A stretch of DNA of 64,000 nucleotides from Caulobacter sp. S45 (lineage in GTDB: Bacteria; Pseudomonadota; Alphaproteobacteria; Caulobacterales; Caulobacteraceae). Both the position numbers and the translations under genes were made by a program. The stretch's first letter is position 1. Each line of letters starts with the position of its first letter. The notes beneath the pieces were generated by a model that saw nothing but the letters and a program-made list of their open reading frames with translations, was not told the DNA's origin and did not search any database. Below are positions 56,314 to 64,000 of the stretch, piece after piece. Location of the stretch: contig NZ_LMUL01000014.1 of NCBI RefSeq assembly GCF_009765965.1, positions 1,602,859 through 1,666,858 on the forward strand. Reading direction: 5' to 3'.

Positions 56314-57738
56314 ATGCGCCTGACCCGACGCTCCTACCTGCCGCTGCTGTTCGCACTGGCCGCCTGCTCCCAACCGGCCGACAAGAGCGCGGCCCAGACG
56401 CCGGCGCTGTCGCCTGAGACGCCGCTGGCCGCGCCCAACCGCGCCCCGCCGTCCAACTTCGCCACCATGAAGATGTCGTTCTCGCCGATCGTGAAGCGCG
56501 CGGCGCCGGCGGTGGTGAACGTCTATTCCACCCGCACGGTGCGCACCCAGGTCGATCCGTTCTGGGGCATGTTCGGCGGCTTGTCGGTGCCGCGCGAGCG
56601 GGTGGAGGGATCGCTCGGTTCGGGCGTGATCGTGCGCGCCGACGGGGTGATCGTCACCAACAACCACGTGGTCGAGGGCGGCCAACAGTTGCGCGTGGTG
56701 CTGGCCGACCGGCGCGAGTTCCCGGCCAAGGTGCTGCTGGCCGACGCCCGCTCCGACATCGCCGTGCTGAAGATCGAGGCCAAGGACGAGAAGCTGCCGG
56801 TGCTGCCGATCGAGAACCGCGACACCGTCGAGGTCGGCGACCTGGTGCTGGCCATCGGCGACCCCTTCGGCGTCGGCCAGACGGTGACCAACGGCATCAT
56901 CTCCGGGCTCGCCCGAACCGATGTGGGCGCGTCCGACAGCGGCTTCTATCTGCAGACCGACGCGGCGATCAATCCGGGCAATTCCGGCGGCCCGCTGGTG
57001 GACATGGACGGCAACCTGATCGGGCTGAACACCTTCATCCTGTCGCGTTCGGGCTCGTCCAGCGGCGTGGGCTTCGCCATCCCGGCGGCCCTGGTGCGGC
57101 GGGTGGTGGAGTCTGCGGTCGGCGGCGTGCACACGGTGCAGCGGCCCTGGCTCGGCGTGCGGGCGACCGCCGTCAACGCCGAAAGCGCGCGCAGCCTGGG
57201 CCTCGCCAAGCCGGAAGGCGTGCTGATCGCCGAGGTCTATCCGGCTAGCGCCGCCGCCCATGCCGGCGTGCAGGTGGGCGACCTGCTGCTGTCGGTCGAC
57301 GGCCAGGCGGTAGCCGACCAGGCGGCGCTGAACTACCTGGTCTCCACCCACAGGCCGGGCGAGACGGTGACGCTGCAGGTCCGGCGAGGCGGGGCGGCCC
57401 GTTCCCTGAGCGCCGTGGTGTCCACGCCCCCGGCCGTCCCGGCGCGCGACGAACGCACCATTTCCGGCCGCAATCCGTTCCAGGGCGCGACCGTGGTCAA
57501 CCTGTCGCCGGCGGTCGCGGACCAGTACGGGCTCGACCCATTCCTGACCGGCGTGCTGCTGACCTCCGCCGGCGAGGGTTTCGCCGGTCGGGCCGGCTTC
57601 CAGGGCGGCGACATCGTGCGTTCGATCAATGGGAAGCGGATCGATACGGTGGCCGATCTCGCGTCCGCCGTTAACGGCGTGCAGAGCTGGCGTATCGTGG
57701 TGCAGCGCGGGGACCAGCAGATTTCGGTCCAGTTCTGA
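56314..57738 (+). CDS. DegP/HtrA-like periplasmic serine protease, lipoprotein
   Basis: 474 residues. The signal sequence ends in a lipobox (LALAACSQ), so it is probably lipid-anchored. The trypsin-like domain has the triad His in VTNNHVVEGG, Asp in ARSDIAVLK and Ser in NPGNSGGPLV. Two PDZ domains follow (about 285-370 and 385-474; GVLIAEVYPASAAAHAGVQVGDLLLSV, then FAGRAGFQGGDIVRSING). Envelope quality control is the expected role. It has no extended Q-linker. Convergent with the cobalamin operon. Confidence 0.93.
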   Translation: MRLTRRSYLPLLFALAACSQPADKSAAQTPALSPETPLAAPNRAPPSNFATMKMSFSPIVKRAAPAVVNVYSTRTVRTQVDPFWGMFGGLSVPRERVEGSLGSGVIVRADGVIVTNNHVVEGGQQLRVVLADRREFPAKVLLADARSDIAVLKIEAKDEKLPVLPIENRDTVEVGDLVLAIGDPFGVGQTVTNGIISGLARTDVGASDSGFYLQTDAAINPGNSGGPLVDMDGNLIGLNTFILSRSGSSSGVGFAIPAALVRRVVESAVGGVHTVQRPWLGVRATAVNAESARSLGLAKPEGVLIAEVYPASAAAHAGVQVGDLLLSVDGQAVADQAALNYLVSTHRPGETVTLQVRRGGAARSLSAVVSTPPAVPARDERTISGRNPFQGATVVNLSPAVADQYGLDPFLTGVLLTSAGEGFAGRAGFQGGDIVRSINGKRIDTVADLASAVNGVQSWRIVVQRGDQQISVQF

Positions 57739-57760: not shown

Positions 57761-58267
57761 TCAGCGCGACCGCGCCTTGAGCATGAATGGTGCGCCCTGA
57801 TCGGCGTCGCATCCGCGCCCGATCTCCGTGATCGCCGCGTTCATCCGCCCCTCGCGCCCTAGCCGCGCATCGGCGAGACGAACCAGCAAGGGATTGGGCG
57901 TCGCCTGCGGAGCCGCACCCCGAAGGACCTGCGCGACCTCCAGCTCGGAGCGCGACGGGTCCAAGGCGCAGGCCAGGATATAGGCGGCCGCGGTCGAGCG
58001 GCTGATCCCCAGCCAGCAGTGGACCAGCAGGGGCGCCGGCTCCGTCCATGCCGCGCCGAACGCCAGCAGGCGGTCCACCATCTCCGCATCGGGTGGCGTG
58101 AAGCCCTCGCGGGGCTCGGCGATGTCGTGGAAGCGCAGCGACAGGTGCGGGCCGGACCAGACCGGCGGCTCCACCCCGGTCGGCGACAGCAGGCTGATCA
58201 GGCGCGCGGGACTGTGGCGGACGATCTGGTCGGCCACGGCGTCGAGCGGACAGACGATCAGGGTCAT
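57761..58267 (-). CDS. Protein-tyrosine-phosphatase-like protein in cobalamin operon
   Basis: 168 residues with the Cys-phosphatase signature LVHCWLGISRSTAAAY (HCx5R: His83, Cys84, Arg90) and a possible general-acid Asp48 in FHDIAEP. Dual-specificity-like fold, no signal peptide. Its ATG overlaps the cobS stop by 4 bp and it is the last gene of the cob operon. Cobalamin synthesis needs an alpha-ribazole-phosphate (or cobalamin-phosphate) phosphatase, usually the histidine phosphatase CobC, which is not seen here. This protein could fill that role; that is inference from context. Confidence 0.82.
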   Translation of the reverse strand: MTLIVCPLDAVADQIVRHSPARLISLLSPTGVEPPVWSGPHLSLRFHDIAEPREGFTPPDAEMVDRLLAFGAAWTEPAPLLVHCWLGISRSTAAAYILACALDPSRSELEVAQVLRGAAPQATPNPLLVRLADARLGREGRMNAAITEIGRGCDADQGAPFMLKARSR

Positions 58268-59028
58268 GCGAACATGACCGTCGCGCCCAGCATCACCGCG
58301 GCCTCGAACACCTGCTCGACCGCGCCCAGCACATCCCCGGTGCGGCCGCCGATCAGCCGTCGCGCCAGGATCATCACCGCCAGCGCCGCCACGGCTCCGA
58401 ACGCCAGCCCGAGCGCGCCGTTGCGCCAGTCCAGCAGGGCGAACGGCCACAGCCCGAGCCCGACCGCGATCGCCGCGTTCGCAGGGCTGGCCGACTGTGG
58501 CGAGGCTTCCGCCTTGGCGGTCGAGGCGTCGCCGGCATAGGGCATGAGCGCCATCGCCACGACCGCCGCCGCCCGGGCCGCCCCATGCGCCGCCAGCAGC
58601 GCCAGCGCGCCCCTCACCGGCGATGCGCCGGCCAGCGCCGCCACGCGCAACGCCCCGACCAGCCCCAGCGCCAGCACGCCATAGGTCCCGACGCGGCTGT
58701 CCTTCATGATTAGGAGCCGGGCCGCCGGCGTCTGGCCGCCGCCCAGGCCGTCGGCGGTGTCGGCCAGCCCATCCTCGTGGAAACCGCCGGTCGCCAGCAC
58801 CCCGGCGCCCACCGCCAGCAGGGCCGCGACCGGGCCGCCGCCCCACACCCGGCTCGCGCCGAGCCACACAAGGGCGGAGATCAGCCCCACCACCTGCCCC
58901 ACCAGGGGGAAGTAGCGCGCCGACCGGCCGATCCAGTCGGACTGGAAACCGTCCAGGCGCGGCGTCGGCAAGCGGGTGAGGAACTGCAGGGCGCAGAGGA
59001 ACAGCCGCCATTCCTGGATGGGGTTCAT
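58264..59028 (-). CDS. cobS: Adenosylcobinamide-GDP ribazoletransferase
   Basis: Joins alpha-ribazole(-phosphate) to adenosylcobinamide-GDP, the last assembly step, in the inner membrane. 254 residues from ATG 59028 (MNPIQEWRLFLCALQFLTRLP); GTG 59052 is possible. Motifs FLTRLPTP, YFPLVGQVVGL, TGGFHEDGLADTADGLGGG (metal-binding acidic loop) and MKDSRVGTYGV. Multi-span. The operon order cobQ-cobT-cobS continues into the phosphatase gene. Confidence 0.95.
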   Translation of the reverse strand: MNPIQEWRLFLCALQFLTRLPTPRLDGFQSDWIGRSARYFPLVGQVVGLISALVWLGASRVWGGGPVAALLAVGAGVLATGGFHEDGLADTADGLGGGQTPAARLLIMKDSRVGTYGVLALGLVGALRVAALAGASPVRGALALLAAHGAARAAAVVAMALMPYAGDASTAKAEASPQSASPANAAIAVGLGLWPFALLDWRNGALGLAFGAVAALAVMILARRLIGGRTGDVLGAVEQVFEAAVMLGATVMFA

Positions 59029-59073
59029 GGGGTCAGTCCAGAAACGACGCACATCCCTCTCAACCGCTCATCC

Positions 59074-60111
59074 CTACAGCCGTCCGGCCAGCACGTCGTC
59101 CAGGCTGGCCACCTCGCTGAGCATCCGCGCCGCCGCCCGCAGCAGGGGCGCGGCCAACACGCCGCCCGTGCCTTCACCGAGCCGCAGCCCGAGGTTCAGC
59201 AGCGGCTCCGCGCCCAACGCCTCCAGCATCAGCCGGTGTCCCCGCTCCGCCGAGGCGTGGGCGAAGACGCAGTAGTCGCGCACCTCTGGAACCAGGCGGA
59301 TCGCCGTCAGGGCGGCCGCCGAAGAGATGAAGCCGTCCACCACCACGATGCGCCTGGCCGCCGCCCCGCCCAGCACCGCGCCGACCATCATGGCGATCTC
59401 CAGCCCGCCGAACTGGCGTAGCACTTCCAGCGGCTCGCCCGAATCGCAACGGGCGGCGGCGCGGGCCAGCACGGCGGACTTGCGGACCAACCCTTCTGCG
59501 TCATGGCCGGCGCCGACGCCGATACAGTCCACCAGGGTCGCCGGCGCCAGGCGATGCATCAGCAGGGCGGCACTGGCGCTGTTGCCGATGCCCATCTCGC
59601 CGAGGACCAGGGCGTCGATCCCCTCGCCGGCCGCATCGGCCGCCAGGGTGACGCCGGCCGCCAGGGCGGCGTCCAGTTCGTCTTCGGACAAGGCCGCTTC
59701 GACGGCGGCGTTGCGCGAACCCCGGCGGACCTTGCGGTCCAAAAGCGCGGGATGGGCGGGCAGGTCGCCGTCCACGCCCGCGTCCACCACCAGCACCTCG
59801 ACATCGCAGGCGCGGGCCAGCGCGTTGACGCTCGCCTTGCCGGCCAGGAAGGTCGCCACCATCGCGCCGGTCACCGCCGACGGGTAGGCCGAGACCCCCT
59901 CTGCATTCATCCCGTGGTCGCCGGCGAACACATGGGCCCGCACCCGCTCGACGCACGGATCGAGCCGCCCCTGGATCTGGCCGATGCGCACGGCCAAATC
60001 CTCGAGCCGACCAAGAGCGCCGGGCGGCTTGGCCTTGCCATCGACGCGGGCACGCAACTCGGCCCCGAGCGCAGGGTCGAGCGGGGCGATGGCGGGCGGC
60101 AGGAATTTCAT
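59074..60111 (-). CDS. cobT: Nicotinate-nucleotide-dimethylbenzimidazole phosphoribosyltransferase
   Basis: 345 residues; activates the lower ligand by making alpha-ribazole phosphate. Opens with [17 protein letters not shown], then [33 protein letters not shown], and the catalytic Glu in [12 protein letters not shown] near the C-terminus. ATGA overlap with cobQ. In Pseudomonas-style naming this enzyme is CobU. Confidence 0.96.
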
Positions 60112-61571
60112 AGGCCGGCGATCCTCGACAGGGTTTCGATATCCAGGGCTTGGCCGAGCGCGGCGGCCAGGGCGTCCAGGTCCGCCTCGACCGCTTCGAG
60201 GCGATGGCCTCCGTGCGAAGCCGCGCCGATCTCCGCCAGCAGGGCCTTGCGGGCGTCCCCATGGTCGAACAGACCATGGACATAGGTCCCAGAGACCCGT
60301 CCGTCGACCGAGCGCGCGCCATCGACGCCGCCGTCCTCGAAAATCAGGAAAGGCCGCGCCACGCCGACGCCCGTGGTCTCGCCCACATGCATCTCGTAGC
60401 CGCTGAAACGCGCGCCACTCGCGACAAGACAGCCCCCCGCCGGCCGCAAGGTCTTCTCGCCGCCCAACACGGTCTCCACGTCGAGCAGGCCAAGCCCAGG
60501 CGCTTCGCCGGGCGCCCCTTCGACGCCTTGGGGATCAGCCACCCGTCGGCCCAGCATCTGGTAGCCGCCGCACAGGCCCAGCATCCGCCCTCCGCGCCGG
60601 ACATGAGCGGCGATGTCGACGTCCCAGCCCTGGACGCGCAGGTGGGCGAGATCGGACAGCACCGCCTTCGACCCCGGCAGCAGCACCAGGTCCACATCGC
60701 CCGGCAACACTCTACCCGGCGGCAGGAAGGTGAAGTCCACCTCCGGCTCGGCCTTCAGCGCATCGAAGTCGTCGAAGTTGGCGATGGCGGGGAGCATCAG
60801 GGCCACCACCTTGACGCGCCGTCCCGAAGCGCTCGACGGGGCGTCCTGCAGCACCACCGCGTCCTCCGCCGGCAATCGCCGCGCCTCCGCCCGCCAGGGG
60901 ACCATGCCCAGGTCCGGCCAGCCGGTGCGGCGGACGATCTCGGCGCGGCCGTCCGCGAACAGCGCCGGGTCGCCCCGAAACTTGTTGATCAGGAAACCTT
61001 TGATCATCGCCCGGTCCCCCGGATCGAGCACGGCGTGCGCCCCGACCAAGGCGGCGATGACGTGGCCGCGGTCGATATCGCCGACCAGGGCGACCGGCGT
61101 ATCCGTCACCCTTGCGAAACCCATGTTGGCGATGTCGCCGGCGCGCAGGTTGATCTCCGCCGGGCTGCCCGCGCCCTCCACCAGCACGAGGTCGGCCTCG
61201 CCCTTCAGCAGCTCGAAGCTCTCCACCACCGTCGACAGCAGGCTTCGCTTGCGGTCCTGGAAGGCGCTAGCGGTCCAGTTCCCCTCCATCCGCCCACGCA
61301 CCACTAGCTGGGCCCCGACGTCGCTCTGAGGCTTCAGCAGCACCGGGTTCATATGCACGCTCAGTGGCGTGCGGCAGGCGATGGCCTGGAGCGCCTGGGC
61401 GCGCCCAATCTCACCGCCGTCGGCGGTGACGGCGGCGTTGTTGCTCATGTTCTGCGGCTTGAACGGCCGCACCCTGAGCCCACGGTCGGTGAACAGGCGG
61501 CAGAGGCCCGCGACCAGGGTCGACTTGCCCACGTCCGAACCGCAGCCCTGGATCATCAGCGTGGCCGTCAT
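60108..61571 (-). CDS. cobQ: Cobyric acid synthase
   Basis: 487 residues from ATG 61571; it amidates four side chains of adenosylcobyrinic a,c-diamide. N-terminal dethiobiotin-synthetase-like ATPase with [30 protein letters not shown] and [14 protein letters not shown]-terminal triad glutaminase with the nucleophile Cys in [12 protein letters not shown], and [12 protein letters not shown]. It overlaps cbiB and cobT by 4 bp each. Confidence 0.96.
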
Positions 61572-62530
61572 CGGCTGCGCCTCCCCGCCACCGCGCCGCC
61601 GATCAGGCAGCCAAGCAACAGCAGGCCGCAAGCGTGGCGGTAGACCGACAATCCCCGCGCCAGGTCGGAAGCCCTCGGCGGCGGCCCGTCGCCGAAGGTC
61701 GGGCGCGCCATGACCTCGCCGTCGTAGACCGCCGCCCCGCCCAGCCGCACGCCCAGCGCCCCGGCCATGGCCGCCTCGGGCCAGCCGGCGTTGGGCGAGG
61801 CGTGCTTCCCGGCGTCGCGTCCCATGGTCCGGGCGCCGCGCCCTGCCGCCAAGGCGATCAGCCATCCAGCGAGGCGCGCCGGGATCAGGTTCATCAGGTC
61901 GTCTGTGCGCGCCGCCGCCCAGCCGAAGTCGCGCCAGCGCGGCTCCATGTGGCCGATAATGCTGTCGGCGGTGTTCACCGCCTTGTAGGCGTAGAGCCCC
62001 GGCAGGCCGCCCAGCGCCAGCCAGAGGGCCGGGGCGACCACCCCGTCGTTGAAGCTCTCCGCCAGGCTCTCCAGCGCAGCGGCCGCCACGCCCGGAGCGT
62101 CCAGGCGAGCCACGTCACGCCCGACGATCCGGCCCACGGCGTTGCGTGCGCCGGGCAGGTCGCCCGCATCCAACGGGCGGCGCACCGCCTCGACGTGATC
62201 GTGCAAGCTGCGTTGGGCCAGACCCGGCGTGGCCAGCAGCGCCGCCGCCAGCCAGCCCAGGCGCGAGCGTCCGCACGCGCGCTGCACCAGCCAGCCCGCG
62301 CCGGCGCTCGCCCCCGCCGTCAGCGTTAAGGTCGCGACGCCGAGCGCCTTACGGCGGACGGGGCCGGTCTCGGGGCGATTCCAACGCCGCTCCAAACCTT
62401 CGATGGCGCGCCCGATCCAGACCACCGGATGCGGCAGGCGCGCGTTGAGCGTTTCGGGATAGCCGACCGCCGCCTCCAGCCCGAGCGCGAGCGCCGCCAG
62501 GCTCACGCAATGGGCGCGGCCGCCCTTCAC
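61568..62530 (-). CDS. cbiB: Adenosylcobinamide-phosphate synthase
   Basis: 320-residue membrane protein that attaches aminopropanol (phosphate) to adenosylcobyric acid; called CobD in Pseudomonas naming. [57 protein letters not shown] and [20 protein letters not shown] are strong family blocks. The first codons ([10 protein letters not shown]) may be shorter in vivo. It is coupled to the ABC ATPase gene by a 4-bp overlap. Confidence 0.95.
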
Positions 62531-63312
62531 CGCCGGCCGATCAGATCGAGCAGCGGTCCGACCGCTCCCGCCGTCCAGCGGGCGTCGATGTCGTAGGCGC
62601 GCGCCAGCACCTCGGGAGACAGGGCCTCGGCCGGCGGCCCGTCCGCGATCACCCTGCCCTCCACCAGCACCACCGCCCGATCCGCCACCCGAGCGGCGAA
62701 ACCCAGGTCGTGCAGGGTGACGACCACGCCCCCGCCCTCGGCCGCGAAGCCGCGCAGCAGGTCGGCGGCGTCGAGCTGATGGCTGGGGTCCAGGCCCGTG
62801 AGCGGCTCATCGGCGATCAGCCAGCGGGGCTCGCCGGCCAGCACCCGGGCGATCAGGGCGCGAGCGCGCTCGCCGCCGGACAGGGTGGTGACGTCGCGGT
62901 CGGCAAAGGCAGTCATCTGTGTACGGATCAATGCGCGTTCGACCGCCGCCTCGTCCTCCGCCGTGGGCCCGAACGCCCCCAGATAGGCGGTGCGGCCGAG
63001 CCGGGCGTAGGTGCGCACGTCCAGGCTCCAGGCGATCTCCGGGGCCTGGGGCAGGTAGCCGAGGCTACGCGCCCGCGTCTTGGCCGAGAGCGTTTCGATC
63101 GGCCGGCCGTCCAGGTGGGTTTCCCCCGCGTCGGGCCGGCGCAGCCCCGCCAGGCAGTTCAGCAGGGTGGACTTGCCCGCCCCGTTCGGCCCCAGCACCG
63201 CAGTGACCTTGCCGGGCTGGAAGGCCAGGTCCACGCCGTCGAGGACCGCGCGACCGCCCAGACGTACGGCCAGCCCCCTCGCTTCCAGCGCCATGGCGCT
63301 CACCGACCTCAC
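62527..63312 (-). CDS. btuD: ABC transporter ATP-binding protein, BtuD/FecE type
   Basis: 261 residues. Walker A VLGPNGAGKSTLL, signature LSGGERARALIARVLA, Walker B RWLIADEPLTGLD and switch His in VVTLHDLGFA. Powers FecCD-type import of corrinoids or siderophores; the operon argues for corrinoids. The start is GTG 63312 (overlapping the permease stop) or ATG 63294 (MALEARGLAVRLGG), which looks more natural. Confidence 0.88.
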   Translation of the reverse strand: MRSVSAMALEARGLAVRLGGRAVLDGVDLAFQPGKVTAVLGPNGAGKSTLLNCLAGLRRPDAGETHLDGRPIETLSAKTRARSLGYLPQAPEIAWSLDVRTYARLGRTAYLGAFGPTAEDEAAVERALIRTQMTAFADRDVTTLSGGERARALIARVLAGEPRWLIADEPLTGLDPSHQLDAADLLRGFAAEGGGVVVTLHDLGFAARVADRAVVLVEGRVIADGPPAEALSPEVLARAYDIDARWTAGAVGPLLDLIGRR

Positions 63313-64000
63313 GCCAGCCTCCGGCGCATGGAGAGCAGCAGCCAGAGGAAGAACGGGCCGCCCAGCACCGCCATGGCCACGCCCAGCCGCACCTCGCTCG
63401 CCGCCGGCGTCAGGCGCACCAGGATGTCGGCTGCGACCAGCAGGGCCGCGCCGGCCAGGGCGCTTGGGACCAGCAGGGCTCCCGGCCGCGAACCGACCAG
63501 CGGCCGAACCAGATGCGGTACGATCAGGCCGACGAAGCCGATGACGCCGGTCACCGCCACGCTGGCCCCGCAGGCGAGCCCGACGCCGATGGCGATCACC
63601 ACCTGGGTCCGGCGCAGGGACACGCCGACCGAGCGCGCGCCGGCCTCGCCCAAGGTCAGGGCGTCGAGCGCGCGGCCGGTGGTCAGCAGCAGGCCGGAAC
63701 CGACGACGATGAACGGCAAGGCGATACGGACATCGACCATGCTGCGGTCGGCGACCGACCCCAGCAGCCAGGTGATGATCTCCGACGTCGCCCAGGCGTT
63801 CGGCGACAGCATCAGGGCCAGGGAAAGCCCCGCCTCTGCGATGACGTTCAGCACCATGCCCGCGAGCAGAAAGGTCGTCGCGCCACCGGCCGAGCCCGCC
63901 AGGGCCAGCAGGATCAGCACGCCGATCCCCGCCCCGCTCATGGCGAAGGCGACCATCATCCAGGGCGCGGCCCCGGTCAGGCCCAGATAGATGGTCAGCA
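63309..64000 (-). CDS. btuC: FecCD/BtuC-family ABC permease (5' end outside window)
   Basis: About 230 C-terminal residues are visible; the gene runs off the window edge. Seven or so helices, with LAGSAGGATTFLLAGMVLN, WLLGSVADRSMVDVRI and the ATPase-coupling loop ACGASVAVTGVIGFVGLIVPHLVRP, typical of vitamin B12/siderophore permeases. A periplasmic binding protein (BtuF) and, perhaps, a cobalamin riboswitch should lie just outside. Confidence 0.9.
   Translation of the reverse strand, partial: LTIYLGLTGAAPWMMVAFAMSGAGIGVLILLALAGSAGGATTFLLAGMVLNVIAEAGLSLALMLSPNAWATSEIITWLLGSVADRSMVDVRIALPFIVVGSGLLLTTGRALDALTLGEAGARSVGVSLRRTQVVIAIGVGLACGASVAVTGVIGFVGLIVPHLVRPLVGSRPGALLVPSALAGAALLVAADILVRLTPAASEVRLGVAMAVLGGPFFLWLLLSMRRRLA

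Follow-up and report, generated by a model that had tools for sequence, protein, structure and literature searches.

Which enzyme removes the last phosphate in cobalamin assembly when CobC is missing? In the established pathway, the last step is the dephosphorylation of adenosylcobalamin-5′-phosphate by CobC (PMC8749415, PMC7242693), which binds CobS proteoliposomes (PMC8749415). The question is raised by a B12 operon at one end of the window (the whole stretch of 64,000 nucleotides that was analysed), in which cobS is followed by a gene for a tyrosine-phosphatase-like protein. The relevant features are as follows.

57761..58267, minus strand: DSP-type Cys-phosphatase (predicted fold) of the cobS-linked clade, 168 aa, operon-terminal gene.
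57998..58021, minus strand: P-loop H83-C84-W-L-G-I-S-R90 (HCx5R), with H83, C84, G87 and R90 invariant across aligned copies.
58124..58126, minus strand: D48, candidate general acid in the loop H-D-I-A-E-P-R; conserved, with the role inferred.
58264..58267, minus strand: ATGA, in which the cobS stop and the phosphatase start overlap; RTGA in 14 of the 15 cobS-linked loci.
58264..59052, minus strand: cobS, adenosylcobinamide-GDP ribazoletransferase (PF02654, 4e-50; TIGR00317 above cut-off).
59074..60111, minus strand: cobT, NaMN:DMB phosphoribosyltransferase (PF02277, 1.2e-118; TIGR03160).
60108..61571, minus strand: cobQ, cobyric acid synthase (GATase_3 and CbiA domains).
61568..62530, minus strand: cbiB/cobD-type adenosylcobinamide-phosphate synthase (PF03186, 1e-92; TIGR00380).
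62527..63312, minus strand: btuD-like ABC transporter ATPase (PF00005, 2.9e-31).
63309..64000, minus strand: btuC-like corrinoid ABC permease, assigned by position and gene order, extending beyond the window.
About 68856-69045: RF00174 cobalamin riboswitch at the operon head (127.6 bits).

The phosphatase ATG lies within the cobS TGA, giving a 4-nt overlap in the ORF coordinates (cobS itself starts at GTG 59052 or ATG 59028). We compared this junction in the 15 cobS-linked copies, namely thirteen from the organism's own family, one from G213 and one from a MAG (L099). The 4-nt ATGA/GTGA overlap with the cobS stop was kept in 14 of them, which bears out the coupling to cobS proposed in the first-pass annotation. 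Downstream lies an HtrA/DegP-type protease gene (56314-57738, plus strand), convergent with the phosphatase gene, which is therefore the last of the operon. Pfam matches beyond the window on the same contig revealed a periplasmic binding protein, cobO, an aminotransferase that is probably the threonine-phosphate decarboxylase, and a TonB receptor; cobU is divergent from the operon. Apart from the phosphatase gene, all operon genes encode B12 enzymes or transporters. A whole-genome search detected no CobN, so de novo corrin synthesis was rejected and the operon was read as serving salvage and late assembly. The earlier description of a cobalamin assembly operon lacking cobC thus holds for a riboswitch-headed late-B12 operon, and not for de novo synthesis.

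CobC has the histidine phosphatase fold and also acts on α-ribazole-5′-phosphate (EC 3.1.3.73, TIGR03162). Archaeal CobZ, a PgpA-like protein of PF04608, is a non-orthologous α-ribazole phosphatase and thus a precedent for the replacement of CobC by an unrelated protein, although its family differs from that of the phosphatase described here. The CobC queries had no match within the window, the CobC model TIGR03162 gave only background scores in the whole genome, and no PgpA/CobZ-type phosphatase (PF04608) was present in the genome. The whole genome has three PF00300 matches, a GpmA-like (L001), a SixA-like (L002) and a divergent protein (L003). The check for cobC and cobZ suggested along with the original proposal therefore found neither, and both a working CobC encoded at another locus (by the PF00300 and TIGR03162 searches) and CobZ/PgpA as the last phosphatase were set aside. 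L003 (1414-2076, minus strand; G000:C9, about 326 kb), a divergent histidine phosphatase with an RHG motif, is, apart from the window phosphatase, the only candidate that this genome offers for the last B12 step. Next to it are genes for a polyprenyl synthetase and a deacetylase-like protein, and no cob genes.

The phosphatase gene is not a chance ORF, as judged from its conservation (whole-genome searches found homologues in 91 of the 200 genomes from the order) and from dN/dS of 0.20-0.39 for close pairs of cobS-linked copies. A single-sequence contig scan had given two loci only; the whole-genome searches gave better coverage. The HCx5R site reported as intact is confirmed as H83-C84-WLGIS-R90-S91 in the 168-aa ORF, and H83, C84, G87, R90 and S91 are invariant in all 75 aligned copies from the B12, NAD and GUAB loci. 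D48 is conserved in 15/15 B12 copies and 46/53 NAD copies; it lies 36 residues before C84, at the distance expected for the general-acid aspartate of the superfamily (about 30 residues before the cysteine). R53 was considered as a marker of the cobS-linked clade. Its presence in a Methylopila copy at an NAD locus ruled it out as a marker of specificity.

The AlphaFold2 model, built with three sequences (pLDDT 85.5, pTM 0.86), places strand 80-84 and then helix 88-102 around the P-loop. It matched the DSP-type fold with a Foldseek probability of 1.00 and superposed on DUSP catalytic domains with Z of 12-13 and rmsd of 2.6-3.0 over 129-132 residues. On this model, the window protein is a member of the Cys-dependent PTP/DSP superfamily with a predicted DSP-type fold. 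Only DSP/PTP profiles matched the sequence, with no match to His_Phos_1, TIGR03162 or PF04608; its Pfam DSPc (PF00782) score of 15.4 bits is below the cut-off of 33.5, and no Pfam or NCBIfam model claims it. The predicted fold and the HCx5R loop are shared with DUSP1, DUSP28 and Yvh1, which are only 10-22% identical to the window protein; for the latter, in contrast to them, a small, nucleotide-like substrate is proposed. Full-length homology was found to an alphaproteobacterial family of small PTPs linked to NadQ and an HD hydrolase, with the P-loop, R116, P124-N125, D133 and GRM conserved. The 197-kb virus Rctr197k (H25; KX853510.1, 171679-171993) also encodes a tyrosine phosphatase-like protein that is distantly related, at 39% over 60% of its length.

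To compare the position after cobS, 200 genomes of the same order were searched for the phosphatase, CobS and CobC, and the coordinates were compared. Weak CobS matches in G008, G043, G092 and G102 were left out, and 49 cobS genomes remained. The slot directly after cobS held CobC in 27 of these, the phosphatase in 13, both in none and neither in nine. Anywhere in the genome, the phosphatase family was present in 22/22 cobS-positive genomes without a cobS-adjacent CobC vs 5/27 with one, a difference confounded by ancestry; the Fisher values likewise ignore shared ancestry and are descriptive only. In all nine cobS genomes with neither enzyme at the slot, the family has a single member, which lies at the NAD locus; L079, L120, L121 and L122 (f3/g8) and L062 (G057) are such loci. 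The NAD-locus copy may do both jobs in cobS genomes without a slot enzyme. Of 97 cobS genomes across the class, at least 46 encode a CobC-like protein no more than 3 kb from cobS; two, the window genome and G213, have the phosphatase there. Histidine phosphatases scoring about 90-109 bits occur away from cobS in nine of the other cobS-linked genomes, and similar ones in genomes without cobS.

A second B12 linkage was observed on four Nitratireductor plasmids, where the family gene overlaps cobD within an aerobic cob cluster; in N. thuwali, the part of the cluster that was read runs from cobW/cobN to cobS/cobT/cobF. Within this plasmid part of the cluster no cobC is annotated, and none was detected with the CobC queries. 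The cobS-linked copies form one side of a branch with SH-aLRT support of 97 in one tree and support of 60/68 in another, and the cobD-linked Nitratireductor copies group with NAD-locus copies of Hyphomicrobiales. A single clade of cobS-linked and cobD-linked copies was not rejected (AU p 0.107), so that one or two recruitments are both compatible with the data.

The family is most often found between genes for a YfbR-like HD hydrolase and an NrtR-type winged-helix regulator, and one or both of these adjoin 57 of the 89 family loci. The regulator matches the predicted NAD regulator NadQ (PMC5343134). The nadA, nadB and nadC genes are often downstream of the trio, which was found at 57 loci among L046-L139 and at L154 on S. 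meliloti pSymB. The latter is intact and annotated as HD family hydrolase, tyrosine phosphatase family protein and NAD regulator; its phosphatase is 40-50% identical to that of the window and belongs to the same family, but resides at the NAD locus and not at cobS. The literature searched reported no function for the NadQ/HD-linked “tyrosine phosphatase family protein”; judging by their context, the small PTP and HD proteins of the trio seem to belong to NAD metabolism as components yet to be characterised. Since most members are at the NAD locus, many of them in genomes without cobS, the family has another role. Seven of the 89 loci lie between rlmE and guaB (L070, L071, L073, L083, L084, L086 and L133), each a second family copy and all in the order's family f5; this conserved context hints at nucleotide metabolism. 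In nine genomes with a cobS-linked copy, HD and NadQ are adjacent and the phosphatase is gone from between them; in three more they are separated by at most about 105 nt, whereas the window genome and G213 have them at separate places. This pattern makes relocation or replacement of the NAD-locus copy a reasonable reading, with either direction possible.

These NAD-linked loci, the vacated HD-NadQ junctions and the same gene order in S. meliloti would also suit a phosphatase that keeps an ancestral NAD-linked activity, e.g. on NaMN or another pyridine nucleotide, tunes the NaMN pool instead of acting on B12 intermediates, and moved beside cobT and cobS because CobT consumes NaMN. We consider this unlikely: an enzyme that destroyed the substrate of CobT from within the cobT operon would work against the pathway, the phosphatase takes the exact slot of CobC where CobC is absent, and the cobS-linked copies stand apart in the tree. 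Even less probable, in our judgement, is a regulatory protein-tyrosine or dual-specificity phosphatase that merely hitch-hikes in the operon, with the last B12 step left to another or a non-specific phosphatase. Its predicted fold is that of protein phosphatases and the RHG-motif L003 is available in the genome, but the cobS overlap is kept over 14 loci, a second linkage is to cobD, the remaining operon genes all serve B12, and L003 lies in an unrelated neighbourhood. A need for the phosphatase at another late step, e.g. to control aminopropanol phosphate or adenosylcobinamide phosphate, would fit the Nitratireductor overlap with cobD rather than cobS, yet is highly improbable, as CbiB and CobU use these compounds phosphorylated, no phosphatase step is missing there, and the Nitratireductor clusters also have no recognisable CobC, so that the same last-step role fits them.

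We therefore regard it as probable that the phosphatase is a non-homologous replacement of CobC, acting on adenosylcobalamin-5′-phosphate and/or α-ribazole-5′-phosphate, because the two enzymes share a slot, the overlap with cobS is conserved, CobC and CobZ were not found, a B12 riboswitch heads the operon and a second B12 linkage exists. The replacement suggested by the first-pass annotation is upheld by the mutual exclusion of the two enzymes at the slot in 40 genomes and by the overlap, CobC/CobZ absence and Nitratireductor evidence; it needs amending in that the usual home of the family is the NAD locus, so that B12 is not its inherent role, and in that the operon serves salvage and late assembly. 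The proposed enzyme would share with CobC the operon place directly after cobS, the coupling to cobS and the reaction, whereas CobC is a His_Phos_1 protein with an RHG motif and the window phosphatase has a Cys-based HCx5R P-loop, with an unrelated fold and chemistry.

In the proposed route, CobT would make α-ribazole-5′-phosphate from NaMN and DMB, and CobS would join it to adenosylcobinamide-GDP, yielding adenosylcobalamin-5′-phosphate, which the DSP-fold Cys-phosphatase would then dephosphorylate instead of CobC. C84 would attack the 5′-phosphate, which the P-loop and R90 would keep in place; D48, the candidate general acid, would protonate the leaving 5′-oxygen, and water would then free the phosphate. 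Coupled translation would put the phosphatase near membrane-bound CobS, as has been shown for CobC in E. coli. The enzyme was probably recruited from a family mostly found beside nadQ and the YfbR-like HD hydrolase; this family may use pyridine or other 5′-nucleotides. As to the substrate, the general acid, the complex with CobS and the ancestral activity of the family, we infer them from sequence, predicted fold, context and distribution. It is tentatively conceivable, at slightly less than even confidence, that alphaproteobacterial DSP-fold phosphatases of small-molecule nucleotide-5′-phosphates normally serve NAD metabolism beside nadQ and an HD nucleotidase and were recruited once or twice to B12 clusters as a non-homologous solution for the last step, and that the NAD copy may cover both roles in cobS genomes without CobC. 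CblZ has been named as an alternative to CobC, with its sequence family not given (PMC6593275), and may be identical in family to the window phosphatase. Our search found no report of the phosphatase gene in B12 synthesis; a 2003 JBC paper on B12 comparative genomics lay outside it, and an earlier prediction is possible.

Reconstructions of the B12 pathway score CobC as the marker of its last step, so that a gap appears wherever a genome has no CobC. If the replacement is true, a Cys-phosphatase would fill this gap for an alphaproteobacterial group and for Nitratireductor. The widespread, uncharacterised family next to nadQ would thereby become open to biochemical study for the first time. The enzyme would also clearly exemplify how a class known for dephosphorylating proteins can act in cofactor synthesis.
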